Of a stretch of DNA of 64,000 nucleotides, positions 4,531 to 55,600 are shown one piece after another (within the stretch, counting starts at the first letter, position 1; every line of letters starts with the position of its first letter). The notes under the pieces were generated by a model. It searched no databases. It was not told the DNA's origin and worked only from the letters and a program-made list of their open reading frames with translations. A program made the translations under genes and the position numbers. The stretch comes from Methylopila sp. Yamaguchi (GTDB lineage: Bacteria > Pseudomonadota > Alphaproteobacteria > Rhizobiales > Methylopilaceae), in NCBI RefSeq assembly GCF_002897035.1, contig NZ_BAUX01000008.1, positions 1 through 64,000 of the forward strand, written 5' to 3'.

Positions 4531-4900
4531 GCGCGTCCGGAACGATCGGCTCATTTTTGGGCAGCAGGGGTCAGGCCCCGGCGGTCCGGACGCCAAACCG
4601 CGCAACGGCGCCACAGGACGGTCGGCTCAAGTTCCGCGATGAGCCGTCGATGGCGGCTCGCTGCAGCGCCGCGCAAACGGGCGCGGCGGTCCGTCGCAGC
4701 GCTTGATGCGCAGCGCGTCGCGCCTCAGTTTCCAACGACCGGTCACCCGTTCATTTTCGCTGCGAAACAATAGCGCACCCAAAGCGCACCTTTTGGTCTT
4801 GGCAATTGGGCTGTGGCACGCCAATTAGGATCGGTACGACGGTGAGCGCTTTCGCAAGCCGTCATGCAGCCCTCCTTTGGGCGTTTCCTCCCTAGACTTG
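4531..4900. other. intergenic region, no gene recognised
   Basis: This lies between erpA and the hairpin before xthA. The short open frames here (for example about 65 codons on the minus strand at 4627-4824) have no recognisable motif and no convincing ribosome binding site. Base composition falls below the flanking genes around 4720-4850, so promoters for xthA may lie here, but I cannot pick one with confidence. Confidence 0.4.
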
Positions 4901-4930
4901 GGCCGCTCGCTTGTCGGGCGGCCTTTTTTT
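4901..4930 (+). terminator. intrinsic terminator
   Basis: GGCCGC (4901-4906) pairs with GCGGCC (4918-4923), followed directly by seven Ts. It reads on the plus strand about 75 bp before xthA, so it most likely ends the erpA transcript, although it is 370 bp from the erpA stop. Confidence 0.7.
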
Positions 4931-5006
4931 CTGCCTGCGCCCTCGCGGCCCGCGCTCAAGACCGTTAGGTCTGACGCACGCGCCGCCCGCTCCGGAGGAC
5001 CGCCCC

Positions 5007-37406: not shown

Positions 37407-38702
<1,296 letters not shown>

Positions 38703-38769
38703 TTAGGCGCGTCACGCTCTCTCCGCTTGATCCCATCTCGCCGTCTCGTGAGATTTCCCCGACGTCCGG

Positions 38770-38794
38770 GGAACCATCCCCGCTCAAGGGCGTT
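38770..38794 (+). promoter_or_regulatory. EcfG-type general stress promoter
   Basis: GGAAC at 38770-38774 and CGTT at 38791-38794, exactly 16 bp apart, is the consensus for the alphaproteobacterial general stress sigma factor EcfG. Transcription would start near 38800, with the terminator 50-80 bp further. Confidence 0.7.
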
Positions 38795-38800
38795 TTCGGG

Positions 38801-38881
38801 CTGTGAACCCTCTACTGCGGCCGAGCTTCCAACCCGGCTGAACGCATGAAACGCCGCCCGCGCCCCGGGCGGCGTTTTTTT
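38801..38881 (+). ncRNA. predicted EcfG-dependent sRNA, about 80 nt
   Basis: There is no plus-strand gene upstream, yet a full promoter (EcfG type) and an intrinsic terminator enclose about 80 nt. The RNA would fold a 6-bp hairpin (CGGCCG with CGGCTG) whose 11-nt loop holds CTTCC, followed by the GC-rich terminator hairpin. No ORF of any size fits. Caulobacter GsrN is a known stress-sigma-controlled sRNA with C-rich loops, but no sequence relation is claimed. Confidence 0.6.
38851..38881 (+). terminator. intrinsic terminator of the predicted stress sRNA
   Basis: A 10-bp stem ACGCCGCCCG / CGGGCGGCGT with a 5-nt loop followed by seven Ts. It lies 52 bp before the TPP aptamer, so it is not the riboswitch's expression platform. 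Confidence 0.92.
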
Positions 38882-38932
38882 GACCCTCGCTCCCGTTGCG
38901 CGGCCCGGAGGGCTCGGCTAACGCTGTCATCT

Positions 38933-39027
38933 CATCTCCATGGGGCGCCCAGACCGGGCTGAGACGGCGGCGACGCCGGACCCATCGAACCTGATCCGGC
39001 TCATACCGGCGGAGGGATTGCGAGATG
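38933..39027 (+). promoter_or_regulatory. TPP riboswitch (THI element)
   Basis: The conserved core is present in order: GGGGCGCC (38942), GGCTGAGA (about 38957), ACCC, GAACCTGATC (38987) and ATACCGGCGGAGGGA. GGAGGG at 39011-39016, part of the conserved 3' strand, is also the ribosome binding site nine bases before the ATG at 39025. CATCTC upstream can pair with GAGATG that includes that start codon. The likely effect is that thiamine pyrophosphate stabilises the aptamer and blocks translation. Confidence 0.95.
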
Positions 39028-39849
39028 GCGGACGCCGCAGATCGGCTCGTCGCCCCCTTGTCCGACACGACCGCGAAGCCCAGACGCGCCCTCATGGCGT
39101 TTGGGCGGCTCGCTGCGACGCTCGGCGTCCTGATCGCCGCCTGGCAGGCCTTCGTCACGCTGTCGGGCGCGCCGCCGTTCCTGCTGCCGCCGCCGGCCCG
39201 CGTCGGCGCCGCGCTGATTGCGCAGTCGGGTTTCCTCGCACGCCAGACGCTGACCACGCTGACCGAGATTGTCGGCGGCCTCGCGATCGGGGTGGCCGTC
39301 GGGGCCGTCACGGCGCTCGCCATCGCGGCGCTCCCCGCGCTTCGCCGTTGGCTGCTGCCGCCGTTGATTGTGGCGCAGGCCGTGCCGGTGTTCGCGATCG
39401 CTCCGCTGCTGGTGCTGTGGCTGGGATTTGGTCTGGGATCGAAGCTCGCGATGGCGGCGCTGATCGTGTTCTTTCCCGTCACTTCCGCCTTCTACGACGG
39501 CCTGCGCCGGGCCGACCCCAACCTCATCGACATCGCCCGTCTCTACGGCGCCTCGCCGCTGAAGGTCCTGCTGCTGATCCGCCTACCCTCGGCGCTGCCG
39601 GCCTTCGGCACGGGGCTGAAGCTCGCCGCCGCGGCCGCCCCCATCGGGGCCGTGGTGGGCGAATGGGTCGGCGCGTCGTCCGGCCTCGGCTTCGTAATGA
39701 TCCACGCCAATGCGCGGATGCAGACCGACCTGCTGTTCGCCGCCCTCATCATTCTCGCCGTGGTCGCCGCCGGCCTCTGGTTCGCGGTCGACTGGGCGCT
39801 CGCGCGCCTCATCCATTGGTCGCCGGAGCATGGCCGCCGCGACTCCTGA
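39025..39849 (+). CDS. thiX: ABC transporter permease, thiamine precursor uptake (ThiX-like)
   Basis: A 274-residue permease of the SsuC/TauC/ThiX class with about six helices and the EAA-type loop DGLRRADPNLIDIARLYGAS. TPP riboswitch control and the ThiY-like gene 24 bp on suggest uptake of a thiamine pyrimidine precursor such as formylaminopyrimidine. Specificity is inferred from regulation. The start at 39025 is fixed by the riboswitch-embedded ribosome binding site. Confidence 0.85.
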   Translation: MADAADRLVAPLSDTTAKPRRALMAFGRLAATLGVLIAAWQAFVTLSGAPPFLLPPPARVGAALIAQSGFLARQTLTTLTEIVGGLAIGVAVGAVTALAIAALPALRRWLLPPLIVAQAVPVFAIAPLLVLWLGFGLGSKLAMAALIVFFPVTSAFYDGLRRADPNLIDIARLYGASPLKVLLLIRLPSALPAFGTGLKLAAAAAPIGAVVGEWVGASSGLGFVMIHANARMQTDLLFAALIILAVVAAGLWFAVDWALARLIHWSPEHGRRDS

Positions 39850-39873
39850 CCTCCGACACCGAGCCCATCCACG

Positions 39874-40809
39874 ATGATCCGCTTCGCCCTCGCCTTCGCC
39901 GCCCTCCTGATCGCGGCGAGCCCGTCGACCGCCGCCGAGAAGCTGGTGGTGCTGCTCGACTGGTACGTGAATCCAGATCACGCGCCGCTGGTCGTCGCCA
40001 AGGAGGGCGGCTTCTTCGCCCGCCACGGCCTTGACGTTGAGCTGATCGCGCCCGCCGACCCCAGCCAGCCGCCGCGGCTCGTCGCCGCCAAGCAGGGCGA
40101 CGTGGCGGTGACCTACCAGCCGGAGCTGCACCAGCAGGTGGCCGCGGGCCTGCCGCTCGTCCGATTCGCGACGCTCATCGACACCCCGCTCAACACCCTC
40201 ATCGCGCTGAAGGACGGGCCGGTGAAGGAGCTCAAGGACCTGAAGGGCAAGAAGATCGGCTACTCCGTCACCGGCTTCGAGGACACGCTGCTGCTCGCCA
40301 TGATGGAGACCGCGGGCCTGACGCGCGACGACGTGGAACTGATCAACGTCAACTTCGCGCTCACCCAATCCCTGATGGCGAAGCGGGTCGACGCCGTCGT
40401 CGGCGGCTACCGCAACTTCGAGGCCACGCAGATCCGGCTGGCCGGCGGCGAGGCGCGAGTGTTCTTCCCCGAGGAGAACGGCGTGCCGACGTACGACGAG
40501 CTGGTGTTCGTCGCCCACAAGGACGCGATCGGCGACGACCGCCTGAAGCGCTTCGTGGCGGCGATCGAGGAGGCCACGACCTTCCTGCTGAACCACGACG
40601 CGGAGGCCTTCGCGCTCTACCTGAAGGGCCATCCCGACCTCAACGACGAGTTGAACACGCGCGCCTGGGCCGATACGCGGCCGCGCTTCGCCAAGAACCC
40701 CGGCCTGCTGGACGCCCGCCGCTACGAGCGTTTCGCGGAGTTCCTCAAGGCCAAGGGCATGATCAAGGAGACGCCGGCTGTCGGGACCTACGCAGTCGAC
40801 GTTCGTTAG
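39874..40809 (+). CDS. thiY: ABC transporter substrate-binding protein, THI5/ThiY-like
   Basis: A 311-residue periplasmic binding protein with a signal peptide (MIRFALAFAALLIAASPSTA, then AEKL). The mature N-terminus LVVLLDWYVNPDHAPLVVAK and KQGDVAVTYQPELHQQVA, then DLKGKKIGYSVTGFEDTL match the NMT1/THI5-like pyrimidine-binding family (ThiY). It is the last gene of the operon. The ATPase ThiZ expected to complete the transporter does not follow; moeA converges 16 bp away. Confidence 0.87.
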   Translation: MIRFALAFAALLIAASPSTAAEKLVVLLDWYVNPDHAPLVVAKEGGFFARHGLDVELIAPADPSQPPRLVAAKQGDVAVTYQPELHQQVAAGLPLVRFATLIDTPLNTLIALKDGPVKELKDLKGKKIGYSVTGFEDTLLLAMMETAGLTRDDVELINVNFALTQSLMAKRVDAVVGGYRNFEATQIRLAGGEARVFFPEENGVPTYDELVFVAHKDAIGDDRLKRFVAAIEEATTFLLNHDAEAFALYLKGHPDLNDELNTRAWADTRPRFAKNPGLLDARRYERFAEFLKAKGMIKETPAVGTYAVDVR

Positions 40810-45254: not shown

Positions 45255-45350
45255 TGGTGGAAGAGAGTGGGAGTCGAACCCACCGGAGACCGGCTGACGG
45301 CCCCCTCCGGCTTTGAAGGCCGGCCGCCCCACCGGGGACGCTTCTCCTCC
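45255..45350 (-). tRNA. selC: tRNA-Sec (anticodon UCA)
   Basis: A 96-nt tRNA including encoded CCA. The 8-bp acceptor stem is GGAGGAGA with TCTCTTCC (one G-U), the anticodon loop is CTTCAAA between CCGGC and GCCGG giving UCA, the T-arm is GTGGG-TTCGACT-CCCAC, and the variable arm is long. These are the marks of bacterial selenocysteine tRNA, which decodes UGA through SelB. The discriminator base is A. Its 5' end is nine bases after the selB stop. Confidence 0.95.
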
Positions 45351-45359
45351 GTGACGCGT

Positions 45360-47315
45360 TCACGCTTCGCTCTGCTCCGTCACGTCCTTGCGGCGGAACA
45401 GGTCGCGGCGGCGGCGGTTTATGCGCCGCTCGTCGCCGCGGCGGATGGTGACGCCGTGACGGTCGAAGAACTCGAGAATCTGTATGGCGACCTTGCGCCC
45501 GTTGTCGAGCCTGTCGCGAAGACGTGCGGCGGTGACGACGCCCGCCGGGTCCTCGGCCGCCGCCGTCTCCGCCACGTCGACCAACTCGGCGGTCGTCTCG
45601 CGCAGGAAGAAGTGGTCATGCGCGATCTCGTCCACGCGGCCGAGCCGGCCGACGAGCTTGAGCACCCGGCGCACGTCCGCCTCGTCCTCTCCAAGCTCCG
45701 CGCCAAGGTCGCGCACCCGCGGCGGGCGAAACCGCAGGTCGCCGGCGAGCCGCGGGGCGATCGCCTCCCACAGCTCCTCGTCCACGGGCGCGAGCCGGAC
45801 GACGTGGCCCGGCAGCCGCGTCCAGGCGCCCTCCACCGCCACCTCGCCCGCGCGCTGAAGCGCGGCGAGCGCGGCGAGGAACGCCGGCGCCGGCAGCCGC
45901 GGCTCGGCGGCGAGGCGCAGCCGCTCCGCCCCCATGCCCTGCAGATCGGGATTGTCAGCATGGTAGGCGCCGAGCGTCTCGGCGACTGAAGCCGCGAAGG
46001 CGCGCCAGGTCTCGCCTCCGACGGCGACCACGCGCCCCTTGCCCGCAGGGAGGCGCATGAGGCCAAGCCGCGCGACGACGGCCGCCATCTCCGCGTCGGG
46101 CGCGTTGCGGTCGCGCATGAAGGCGTCGAGGTCGACCGCGTGCGGCGGCGCGGCGAGCAGGGCGGCGAGCGCGCGGCCATGGTCGTCGTGGGCGAGCGCC
46201 TCCAGTTGCGCGGCCCGCTCAGGGGAGCGTCGCCGCCGCGACGGCCCACGCAGGTCCAGGATGCGCCCGCCGGCGATGGTGCGGGCGCCGCCGACGTCGC
46301 GCAGCACGAAGCGATCGCGAGCGACCGCGGCGAGCGGGCGGTCCAGGACCAGCTGCGCGCGCGCCGTCGCGCCCGGCGGAATGGCGTCGCCGTCGATCGG
46401 CACCACGCGGGCGGCGATCTCGGCGGCGCCGTGATGCAGTCGCGCCGGGCTCCAGGCCGCGAGCGGCCGCGGCTCGGTCGCAAGCAGGGTCAGCTCCACG
46501 TCGAGACGATCGGTCGGCGCGTGCAGCTCCGCCGCCTGGACGACGTCGCCGCGGGAGATCGCGTCCTTGGTCACGCCAGGGCCGGCGAGATTGAGCGCGC
46601 AGCGCTCGCCGGGCCGCCCTTCGTCCGCCGGCTGGTTCTGCGCGTGGATCGCGCGCACCCGCGCCTCCAGCCCCTGGGGCGAGACGATCACCGCGTCGCC
46701 CACCCGCACGACTCCGTCGCGCACGGCGCCGGTCACCACCGTGCCGGCGCCCGACAACGTGAAGCTGCGGTCGACCGACATGCGGAATCGGCCCGCGGCG
46801 GGCCGCTTGGGCGTCTCCACGCGCGCCGCGTCCAGCAATGCGAGGAGCGGCGCGATCCCCTCGCCCGTCACGGTGGAGACCGGGACGACGGGCGCGCCGT
46901 CGAGCCTGGTGCCCGACAGGAGCGCGGCGACCTCGATCTCGGCCTCGAGCCGCCGGTCGTCGTCGACGAGATCGACCTTGGTCAGTGCGACGGCGCCCCT
47001 GGACACCCCGAGCATGTCGACGATGGCGAGGTGCTCGCGGGTCTGCGGCATCGGTCCGTCGTCCGCCGCCACCACCAGCAGCACGAAGTCGATCCCGCTG
47101 GCGCCGGCCAGCATGTTGCGGACGAAGCGCTCATGGCCGGGAACGTCCACGAAGCCAAGCGTCGCGCCGTCCGGCCGCGGCAGATAGGCGAAGCCGAGGT
47201 CGATGGAGATGCCGCGGGCCTTCTCCTCCTTCAGCCGGTCGGTGTCGACGCCGGTCAGCGCCCGCACCAGCGCCGACTTGCCGTGGTCGATGTGCCCAGC
47301 CGCTCCGACGATCAC
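45360..47315 (-). CDS. selB: selenocysteine-specific elongation factor
   Basis: A 651-residue GTPase that carries Sec-tRNA-Sec to ribosomes at UGA codons followed by a SECIS hairpin. The EF-Tu-like part shows [18 protein letters not shown], the IDLGFAYL segment, [13 protein letters not shown] and TKVDLV; the C-terminal half has winged-helix RNA-binding domains ending in a basic tail ([15 protein letters not shown]). The GTG start at 47315 overlaps the preceding stop (GTGA). tRNA-Sec follows directly. Confidence 0.95.
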
Positions 47316-48112
47316 CGCGAAGGCGCGTCCATGGGCGCGCGGGCGGAAGCCTCGGCCTGGCGGGCCTCGTCGTCGGTCAGGGCGCCGCGGACCGCACCAA
47401 GGAAGGGCGCCGCCAGCGCGCTGCCGCCGGCTTCGGCCCTGAGCAGCCACCCGAGCGCCGCCGCATCGTCCTTCGCCACGCCCTGCCCCAGGTGCAGCGC
47501 GGCCCCCAGCATCGCCTGCCCGTCGGCGTCGCCCCGCCGGGCGGCCTCAGCCCACCAGCTGGCGGCCTCCGTCTTGTTGCGCTCCATCCCGAGCGCGTTG
47601 TTCGCCATCAGGCCGAGCCGCGTCATGGCGCTCGCGACGCCGTTCTCGGCGGCGGCCAGCGCCCAGTGGCGCGCCCCGGCCAGATCCTGCGCGGCGCCCT
47701 GGCCCTCTAGCAGCATCCAGCTCAGCATGTCCTGGGCTGCGGGATCGTCCTGCTCCGCAGCCTGACGGTAGAGGGCGAGCGCCGCGGCGTCGTCCTGAGG
47801 GACGCCCTCGCCCTTGAAATGAAGGGCCGCCAGATTGCGCCGACCGACGGCGTCGCCCGCGCGCGCGGCCTTTGCGAACCACTCCGCCGCCGTCGCCGGA
47901 TCGCGCGCCACGCCCAGCCCTTCCGCGTAGCAGGCGCCGAGATTGCTCTGCGCCCGCGCCACGCCCTCGTCCGCCAGCACGCGCCACAGGGCGACGGCCG
48001 CGCCGTGATCGTCGGCCTGCGCGGCCTCGAACGCCTGCGACAGGCGCTCCTCGACGGACTTCCGCGGCGCCGGCGGGGTAAAGCGGGCCTTCAGGCGATC
48101 GATCCAGCTCAT
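47312..48112 (-). CDS. Sel1-repeat protein embedded between selA and selB
   Basis: A 266-residue cytoplasmic protein with about six Sel1/TPR-like repeats: [77 protein letters not shown] and [20 protein letters not shown]. No signal peptide. The start overlaps the selA stop (ATGA) and the stop overlaps the selB start (GTGA), so all three are translated in a chain. The repeats suggest a protein-binding adaptor. Whether it assists Sec synthesis or SelB is unknown. Confidence 0.88.
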
Positions 48113-52670: not shown

Positions 52671-55600
52671 TTACGCCGACGCCGGAGCCGAGGTCGGCTC
52701 GATGTTGACCAGGAACGCCTTGTACTCGGGCGTCTCGATGTTGGCGTCGCCGACGAAGGGGGTAAGCGAGTTCGGGTTGTAGCCCTTCTTGGTCTTGCCC
52801 ATGAAGCCCCAGTGCTGAGGGATGCCCACCACGTGGACCGGCCGCCCGTCGACCATCAGCGGCTTGATGCGCTTGGTGACGACCGCCTTGGCCTTGATCG
52901 ACCCGCGGTTCGACCACACCCGCACCCAGCCGCCCTTCTCGATGCCCTTCTCCTTGGCGAGCTGCTCCGAGATCTCGACGAAGAACTCGGGCTGCAGCAC
53001 CGCGTTGACCCAGACGTGCTTGGTCCACTGATGGAAGTGCTCGGTCAGGCGATAGCTGGTCGCGACGTAGGGGAACTTGTCGGCGTTCCCCAGCGCCTCG
53101 AGGTCGGCCTTGAAGATGCGCGCGGCGGGATTGCCACGGATCTTCGGCGCGATGGCGTTCGCCACCGGCGCCTCGAAGGGCTCGTAGTGCGACGGGAACG
53201 GCCCGTCGCGCATCATGCCGCGGGAGAACAGCCGCGCCACGCCCTCGGGGTTCATGATGAAGGGTCCGACCGACTGCTCCGGCTTCACGGTCGGGCCGTA
53301 GTCCGGCACGTCGTAGCCGCCCCAGCGCTCGCCGGTCCACCAGACCAGCTTGCGCGACGGATCCCAAGGCTTGCCGGAGACGTCCGACGAGGCGCGGTTG
53401 TAGAGGATCCGCCGGTTGAGCGGCCAGGCCCAGGCCCATTTGGGCGCGAGGCCCGTGTCGCCGGGGTCGGAGGTGTCCCGCCGGGACATCTGGTTGCCGG
53501 CCTCGGTGTAGCAGCCCGAGTAGATCCAGCAGAACGAGGCGGTGGAGCCGTCGTCCTTCATCTGCGCGAAGCTGTCGAGCAGCTTGCCCTTCGCCACCAG
53601 CACCTTGGTGGGGTCGTTCGGATCGGTCACGTCGGCGAGCGCCGTGCCGTTCATCTCGCGCGCGAGCTCCTCGGCCGCCGGCTCCTCCGGTTGGCCGTAA
53701 GGCCAGCGCAGGTTGACGATCGGGTCCGGGAAGGCGCCGCCCTCGTTGAGATAGAGCTCCTTCAGCCGCAGGTGCAAGCCGGCCATGATCCAGGTGTCGG
53801 CCTTGGCCTCGCCGGGAGGCGACACCGCCGCGTTGTGCCACTGCAGCCAGCGGCCGGAGTTCACGATCGAACCCTCGTCCTCGGCGAAGCAGCTGGTCGG
53901 CAGCTGGAACACCTCGGTCTGGATGTCCGCCGTTTTCACGTCGTTGAACTCGCCGTGGTTCTCCCAGAACCGCGAGGTCTCGGTGTCGAGCGGGTCCATC
54001 GTCACCAGGAACTTCAGCTTGGCGAGGCCCGAGGTGATCTTCGCCCGGTTGGGGAAGGTCATCAGCGGGTTGAACCCCTGGCAGAAGTAGCCGGTGATCT
54101 TGCCCTGGTTCATGAGCTCGAACGTGCGCAGCACGTCGTAGGTCACGTCGAGCTTGGGCAACCAGTCGAAGGCCCAGTTGTTCTCCGCCGTCGCCTTGTC
54201 GCCCCACATGGATTTCTGGAACGAGACGAAGAACTTCTTGTAGTTCTGCCAGAAGCTGGTCTGGCCAGGGCGCAGCGGCTTGAAGCCGCGCGTCGACATG
54301 TAGGCGTTGAAGTCGGGCTCCTTCTCCGTCGGCAGGTTCATGTAGCCGGGGAGCGAGTTCGACAGCAGGCCGAGGTCGGTGAGACCCTGGATGTTGGAGT
54401 GGCCGCGAAGGGCGTTCATGCCGCCGCCGCGCACGCCGATGTTGCCCATCAGCAGCTGGATCATCGCCATGCCGCGGATGTTCTGCGCGCCCTTGGAGTG
54501 CTGGGTCCAGCCGAGCGCGTACATCGACGTCATGGTCTTCGTCGGCGTCGAGCACTCGGACATCATCTCGGCCACCTTCAGGAACTTGTCCTTCGGGGAG
54601 CCGCAGATCTTCTCCACCATCTCAGGCGTGTAGACCGCGAAATGCTGCTTCATCAGCTGGAAGACGCAGCGCGGGTCCTGCAGGGTCGGGTCGACCTTAG
54701 CGTAGCCCTGCTCGTCCATCTGGTAGTCCCAGGACGAGCGGTCGTAGTCGCGCTTCTCTTCGTTGTAGCCCGTGAACAGGCCGTCCGACCACGCGAACTC
54801 CGGCTTCACCAGGAAGGAGGCGTTGGTGAAGGCCTTGACGTACTCGTGCTGGATCTTGTCGTTCTGAAGCAGGTAATTGATGACGCCGCCGAGGAAGGCG
54901 ATGTCGGTGCCGGGCCGGATCGGGCAATAGAAGTCGGCGACCGAGGCGGTCCGCGTGAAGCGCGGATCGACGACGATCAGCTTGGCGCCGCGGTTGGCCT
55001 TGGCCTCAGTGACCCATTTGAAGCCGCACGGATGCGCTTCCGCCGCGTTGCCGCCCATGACGACCACGAGGTCCGTGTGCTTGATGTCGCCCCATGCGTT
55101 CGTCATGGCGCCGCGACCGAATGTTGGGGCGAGACTCGCCACCGTCGGTCCGTGTCAGACGCGCGCCTGGTTGTCGAAGGGCAGGACGCCGAGGGAGCGG
55201 ATGACCTTGTAGGTCAGCGTTCCCGTCTCATTGGTCGTGGCCGAGGCCGCCAGGAACCCGACCGAGGTCCAGCGGTTGACGGTGACGCCGTCCTTGCTGG
55301 TGGTCTGGAAGTTCTTGTCGCGGTCGTCCTTCATCAGGCGCGCGATGCGGTCGAGCGCGAAGTCCCAGGTCACCCGCTCGAACTTGTCGGAGCCGGGCTT
55401 CCGGTGCATCGGGTACTTCAGCCGCGTGTCCGCATGCACGAAGTCCAGAAGCGCCGCGCCCTTGGGGCAGAGCGTGCCACGGTTCGTCGGATGATCCGGA
55501 TCGCCCTCGACGTGCAGAAGCGAGGCGTGTGTGTTCTTGGACCTGTCGCCGAGGCTGTACAGGATGACGCCGCAGGCCACGGAGCAGTAGGGGCAGATGT

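Follow-up and report, generated by a model that had tools for sequence, protein, structure and literature searches.

An EcfG-type promoter and terminator unit between aatA and a TPP riboswitch in Methylopila, a candidate stress-dependent small RNA

Does the DNA between aatA and a TPP riboswitch in Methylopila sp. Yamaguchi hold a gene of its own for a small RNA of the general stress response, and if so, through which part would such an RNA act? In the 64,000-nucleotide stretch that we analysed (the window), an earlier note had read an EcfG-consensus promoter followed by a near-perfect intrinsic terminator. Both readings hold: GGAAC-N16-CGTT stands at 38770-38794 and matches the EcfG1 motif of Rhizobium etli (PMC3892343), and the terminator, with a 12-bp stem and seven Ts, occupies 38849-38881 (Table 1). 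We consider it reasonably probable that this unit is an independent gene for a trans-acting sRNA of about 80 nt, which would depend on sigma-EcfG and whose 5' end would pair with Shine-Dalgarno regions.

The unit and its conservation in the genus

Table 1. Coordinates of the unit and of its neighbours in the window
Feature	Position	Strand	Remarks
-35 box GGAAC, EcfG-type promoter	38770..38774	+	5/5 invariant in G000, G007, G010
-10 box CGTT, spacing N16	38791..38794	+	4/4 invariant; spacer 9/16
5' tail UGUGAACCCUCUA with the AACCCUC word (38806-38812)	38802..38814	+	13/13 invariant; predicted unpaired; putative seed
Small hairpin CGGCCG-11 nt-CGGCUG, CUUCC in the loop	38818..38840	+	predicted fold
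Intrinsic terminator, 12-bp stem and T7	38849..38881	+	arms invariant in three orthologues
Candidate sRNA, about 80 nt	38802..38881	+	start placed by promoter spacing
Sigma-70-like TTGCGC-N17-TAACGC	38896..38924	+	by eye; outside the sRNA, 3' of the terminator, before the TPP riboswitch
aatA, class I aminotransferase gene	starts 38609	-	Pfam
TPP riboswitch	38931-39034	+	
Two transporter genes, BPD_transp_1 and NMT1	3' of the TPP riboswitch	+	Pfam
moeA	ends 40826	-	2 kb from the unit

The terminator arms lie at 38849-38860 and 38866-38877 around a 5-nt loop, with the T7 run at 38875-38881. For the RNA from 38802 to 38881 a fold of -33.7 kcal/mol is predicted (z -2.96 vs shuffles). The small hairpin is the minimum-energy fold in two close congeners (G007 and G010) and meets a competing fold in the window's own genome (G000); in G010 a G-U pair has become G-C with the pairing kept. 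An alignment of eight sequences shows changes on both sides, with the pairing kept, at two of the nine consensus pairs of the terminator. For this RNA Rfam 15 gave no match at or above a gathering cut-off, whether the window or 38640-38930 was searched, the best score being 19.2 bits (RNAI, cut-off 47).

We compared the locus among 13 genomes of the genus, including that of the window. The order aatA, unit and TPP riboswitch occurs in three of them (G000, G007 and G010). In the alignment of these three, the -35 and -10 boxes are invariant in 9/9 columns and their spacer in 9/16 (56%); the DNA from aatA to the -35 box is invariant in 108 of 176 columns (61%) and the discriminator in 3 of 7. The RNA itself is kept in 13/13 columns of the 5' tail, in 22/24 of the hairpin region and in 32/34 of the terminator, where both misses concern the length of the T-tract and the arms are invariant. 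The TPP aptamer is invariant in 103 of 104 columns. The stretch from the terminator to the riboswitch does not drift and equals the RNA in conservation (14/15 and 26/29 columns), so that only the contrasts of the boxes with their spacer and of the RNA with the upstream DNA are telling.

Similar units were found at a second place. A BLAST match to the terminator in G005 (E 1e-8) led to a unit of GGAAC-N17-CGTT, about 80 nt and a terminator, which sits between the 3' ends of opgH/mdoH (NCBIfam) and moeA. Units at opgH-moeA are present in G002, G003, G004, G005 and G006, with GAAAC as the -35 box in G003, so that 8 of the 13 genomes have a unit at either place (three at aatA-thi, five at opgH-moeA). 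In G000, G007 and G010 opgH is located elsewhere and no unit lies behind it, and in G001, G008, G009, G011 and G012 the DNA that we read near aatA, moeA and opgH showed no unit. A 21-nt terminator core, loop included, is common to G000, G007, G010, G005 and G004, and the bodies of the Hansschlegelia units are strongly divergent. An RNA model built from five Methylopila units (R1) did not recover two known Hansschlegelia units, those of G002 and G003, so that their homology is judged by position, promoter, terminator and one short word.

Promoter plus terminator is a rare combination. We searched the 39 loci of aatA, moeA and opgH in the 13 genomes for G(G/A)AAC-N15,18-GTT followed within 230 nt by a terminator-like hairpin, and the combination occurred at the eight units only; the remaining GGAAC..GTT matches by aatA or moeA in these loci had no terminator behind them. 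In named genomes we took the 80 best-matching opgH loci, 558,762 bases in all; GGAAC-N16,18-GTT with a terminator occurred in four of them, each time immediately behind opgH. The unit L153 is absent from this count because its -35 box is GAAAC and the pattern demanded GGAAC.

Beyond the genus, R1 was searched with stricter filters in 249 genomes of the order, a sample that includes nine genus genomes. Among the matches listed, five were strong (82-131 bits), all of them building sequences of the model, and the next reached 36.9 bits. Of 25 weak loci that we inspected (L290-L314), four had a GGAAC..GTT match in register. L290, L291 and L294 were rejected as relatives, as all three resemble the end of the coding region of a single conserved gene, and many other weak loci resemble gene ends with a terminator. 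L297, from another genome of the order (G218), was rejected too: it is an EcfG-type unit of GGAAC-N16-CGTT, a CCCCCC stretch and a terminator, and its C-run RNA is unrelated in sequence. A pattern search with GGAAC-N15,18-GTT-N8,22-CCCTC proved too loose to be useful, matching 232 of the 249 genomes among the matches listed, with no clear excess by eye over its reversed control across the order; in the nine sampled genus genomes there were 41 matches vs 22 for the reversed pattern.

Within the limits of the sampled order, we thus found the unit in this genus alone. The earlier note had named a lack of conservation of promoter and terminator across relatives as a refutation, and this did not come about: both are conserved in two close relatives, with a similar unit in five more genomes. 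The literature found on Methylopila and sRNA contained no title on such an RNA.

The 5' end and the proposed mode of action

In all eight units a word of the form A(A/U)C2-4U(C/U) begins 8-12 nt past the GTT of the -10 box, and 8/8 have A(A/U)CC..U, predicted to be unpaired, past the expected start. At 7-13 nt the word occurs in 1 of 92 other EcfG-like sites, with a background of 0.5%; these counts are generous because the word was defined after inspection of the eight sequences, and three of these belong to close relatives. Its mean unpaired probability is predicted to be 0.70-0.97 across the eight units. The CTTCC loop is not common to all of them, and CUUCC has become CCUCC in G010. An RNA of about 80 nt with CTTCC in its loop had been proposed in the earlier note. 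The loop does lie in a predicted hairpin, but the best-kept part is the 5' tail, and the unpaired 5' end, rather than the loop, is likely to be the active part.

Such a 5' end, common to the units, rich in C and U and predicted to be unpaired, points to pairing at Shine-Dalgarno regions and, mostly, to repression. Under stress, PhyR would take NepR off sigma-EcfG, as in the established pathway, and EcfG would initiate transcription at GGAAC-N16-CGTT; the strong intrinsic terminator would stop the RNA ahead of the thiamine riboswitch. With its unpaired 5' end (GUGAACCCUCUA) the RNA would then pair with the purine-rich Shine-Dalgarno regions of target mRNAs, the pairing would mostly repress translation, and Hfq would probably take part. 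This design is like that of the RybB- and MicA-type sigma-E sRNAs of enterobacteria, which combine an ECF-sigma promoter, a length of about 80 nt, a 5'-terminal seed and an intrinsic terminator, although the sigma factor and the bacteria are different ones and we claim no relation in sequence.

Searches for targets gave no enrichment. The seed complement RGAGGGTTC occurs 27, 29 and 24 times in G000, G007 and G010 vs 32, 27 and 19 times for the reversed word, the RNA's own complement being counted, and AGAGGGTT near ATG occurs 1, 0 and 1 times vs 2, 2 and 0 in the controls. Among 79 seed-complement places in the three genomes (80 less the window RNA's own complement), two sites are in Shine-Dalgarno position in all three: L368/L381/L405, at a gene which we take to be DUF2076-like, and L338/L379/L407. 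These two sites prove nothing because GGAGG itself is the Shine-Dalgarno consensus.

The lack of target enrichment would also suit a real EcfG-dependent sRNA that has no 5' seed and acts instead through its CUUCC loop or by titrating an RNA-binding protein, be it Hfq or a different one. The good conservation of the hairpin region in the three close orthologues would suit such an RNA as well, but the loop is not kept in all eight units whereas the 5' word is, and we regard this explanation as rather unlikely.

The promoter, its regulator and known EcfG-driven RNAs

A nepR gene above the Pfam cut-off is present in 13/13 genus genomes; that of G000 lies below the NCBIfam NepR cut-off (27.1 vs 100). 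Next to it in G000 comes an ECF sigma gene, in which Sigma70_r2 and r4 were found and which we name EcfG because of its place beside nepR. In G000 phyR is unconfirmed, the sequence there being a 73-aa fragment without a Pfam match. Together with the conservation of the unit and the units at a second place, nepR and the adjacent ECF sigma gene lend support, at the level of sequence, to the earlier proposal of an sRNA that is driven by EcfG and has a terminator of its own. Upstream of nepR in G000 there is a match to GGAAC-N16-CGTT (L099 1413-1437), part of a palindrome, which was discarded as an internal promoter control because G007 and G010 have AGAAC. A different word, CGTTAGC, occurs at most 350 nt before nepR in 10 of the 13 genomes, and CGTTAGCGGA in six.

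The unit might also be transcribed from a promoter of another ECF sigma factor, or of sigma-70, and stand outside the general stress response. GGAAC-type -35 boxes are common to several ECF groups. Against this, GGAAC-N16-CGTT is exactly the motif described for EcfG1 in R. etli, where it drives the ncRNA ReC64 directly (PMC3892343), and it is close to the M. extorquens motif GAAC-N16,17-C/GGTT (PMC4814048); moreover, a consensus scan of 37500-40500 found no sigma-70-type promoter. We therefore consider another sigma factor improbable.

EcfG-driven sRNAs as such are already known, in the form of ReC64, GsrN and predicted cases in S. meliloti, where sigma-E2 motifs were predicted before 23 sRNAs and array evidence was reported in eight regions that hold sRNA genes (PMC3616915). 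ReC64 has the same promoter motif as our unit and is located downstream of phyR-tcrY (PMC3892343). GsrN of Caulobacter, which is sigma-T-dependent and the nearest worked-out example, and the GsrN-like RNAs of Rhizobiaceae likewise combine an EcfG-type promoter, a short transcription unit of its own and an exposed C-rich word near the 5' end (PMC5869019). However, the 5' loop of GsrN carries six tandem Cs, whereas in the Methylopila unit the C-rich word has three consecutive Cs and belongs to a tail predicted to be unpaired. GsrN candidates outside Caulobacteraceae were sought beside the ecfG/phyR locus, to which C. crescentus itself is the exception (PMC5869019). The Methylopila unit has no such proximity to an ecfG-nepR-phyR locus: in G007 it lies at C1:517,710 and nepR at C1:2,330,876, about 1.8 Mb apart on one contig, and in G000 the two are on separate contigs (the unit on C8, nepR on C5 and a weaker nepR on C16). 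Compared by features and not by sequence, the unit thus differs from GsrN in both respects, the tandem-C loop and the linkage to the stress locus.

The genome has a second EcfG-type RNA unit (L253, C11:37895-38037, - strand, GGAACC-N15-CGTT), which faces a presumably hisG-like gene at its 3' end. In G000 three hairpins are predicted for it, the last being a terminator. Counting its relatives (L315-L326, E up to 0.001), it occurs in 12 of the 13 genus genomes, G006 being the one without; by eye, all 12/12 retain this form of the promoter together with two CCCCCGA stretches, the fold being predicted for G000 only. Rfam gave sub-threshold matches only (BjrC80, 17.4 vs 80). This RNA is the better GsrN-like candidate of the genome, and a genus-wide one.

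More tentatively, and with somewhat less than even confidence, we suggest that the eight units represent a family of sRNAs at the level of the genus, which would serve the general stress response and carry an anti-Shine-Dalgarno seed at the 5' terminus, whose mechanism would be RybB-like and not GsrN-like and which would work alongside the second, GsrN-like EcfG RNA in the same cells. The sRNA would have come to lie beside other genes (five species have it at opgH-moeA, three at aatA-thi near moeA); promoter, seed and terminator would have been kept and the body would have diverged. EcfG-driven sRNAs are known in a few alphaproteobacteria, and in the literature cited here a target has been worked out only for GsrN. 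If true, one methylotroph genus would have two EcfG-type sRNA units, one with a 5'-end seed and the other with tandem-C stretches, and the post-transcriptional layer of its general stress response would be divided between them, which could be tested by single deletions.

Thiamine genes, chance and other elements of the window

The unit ends 50 nt upstream of the TPP aptamer and the intervening DNA is conserved, so it might be a leader or attenuator of the TPP-thi operon, from which EcfG-driven transcription would read through into the thiamine transporter genes under stress. Such a role is very unlikely because the unit and the aptamer are separated by the strong terminator and by a promoter-like sequence, distinct and conserved; furthermore, five congeners have the similar unit at opgH-moeA instead. 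The promoter-like sequence, TTGCGC-N17-TAACGC, was missed by the consensus promoter scan, and 26 of the 29 columns of 38897-38925 are invariant.

By itself the promoter motif is not rare. The window holds two matches to GGAAC-N16-CGTT vs 1.24 expected, at least two occurred in 35 of 100 shuffles, and genome-wide there are 94 matches to the EcfG-like pattern vs 51 for the reversed pattern. The unit of promoter and terminator is rare: a terminator-like hairpin lies within 230 nt of only 4 of 93 distinct EcfG-like sites in the genome, two of them convincing by eye and two weak. The earlier note had also stated that no ORF lies here on this strand. Mechanical + strand ORFs of 53 aa (38688-38849) and 56 aa (38636-38806) do overlap the unit, but coding is unlikely because the overlapping stretch has indels of varying length among orthologues and a 12-codon GTG frame within the RNA has, by eye, lost its stop in G010. 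With the boxes conserved against their spacer and units at a second place in addition, it is highly improbable that the promoter match stands next to a terminator by chance, however common the pattern alone may be, or that the unit is a short coding gene.

Other RNA elements were noted in the window. A tRNA-Sec gene (45259-45350, - strand) lies directly behind the stop codon of a gene at 45360-47450 (- strand), which we take to be selB. For Methylopila a new stop codon before selC has been reported, and the position of the tRNA-Sec fits this (PMC8124441). A SECIS_3 element at 55102-55160 (- strand, 82.9 bits) fits the selenocysteine genes of the window, and an MmgR sRNA of the suhB family was found at 4862-4938 (+ strand, 71.2 bits).
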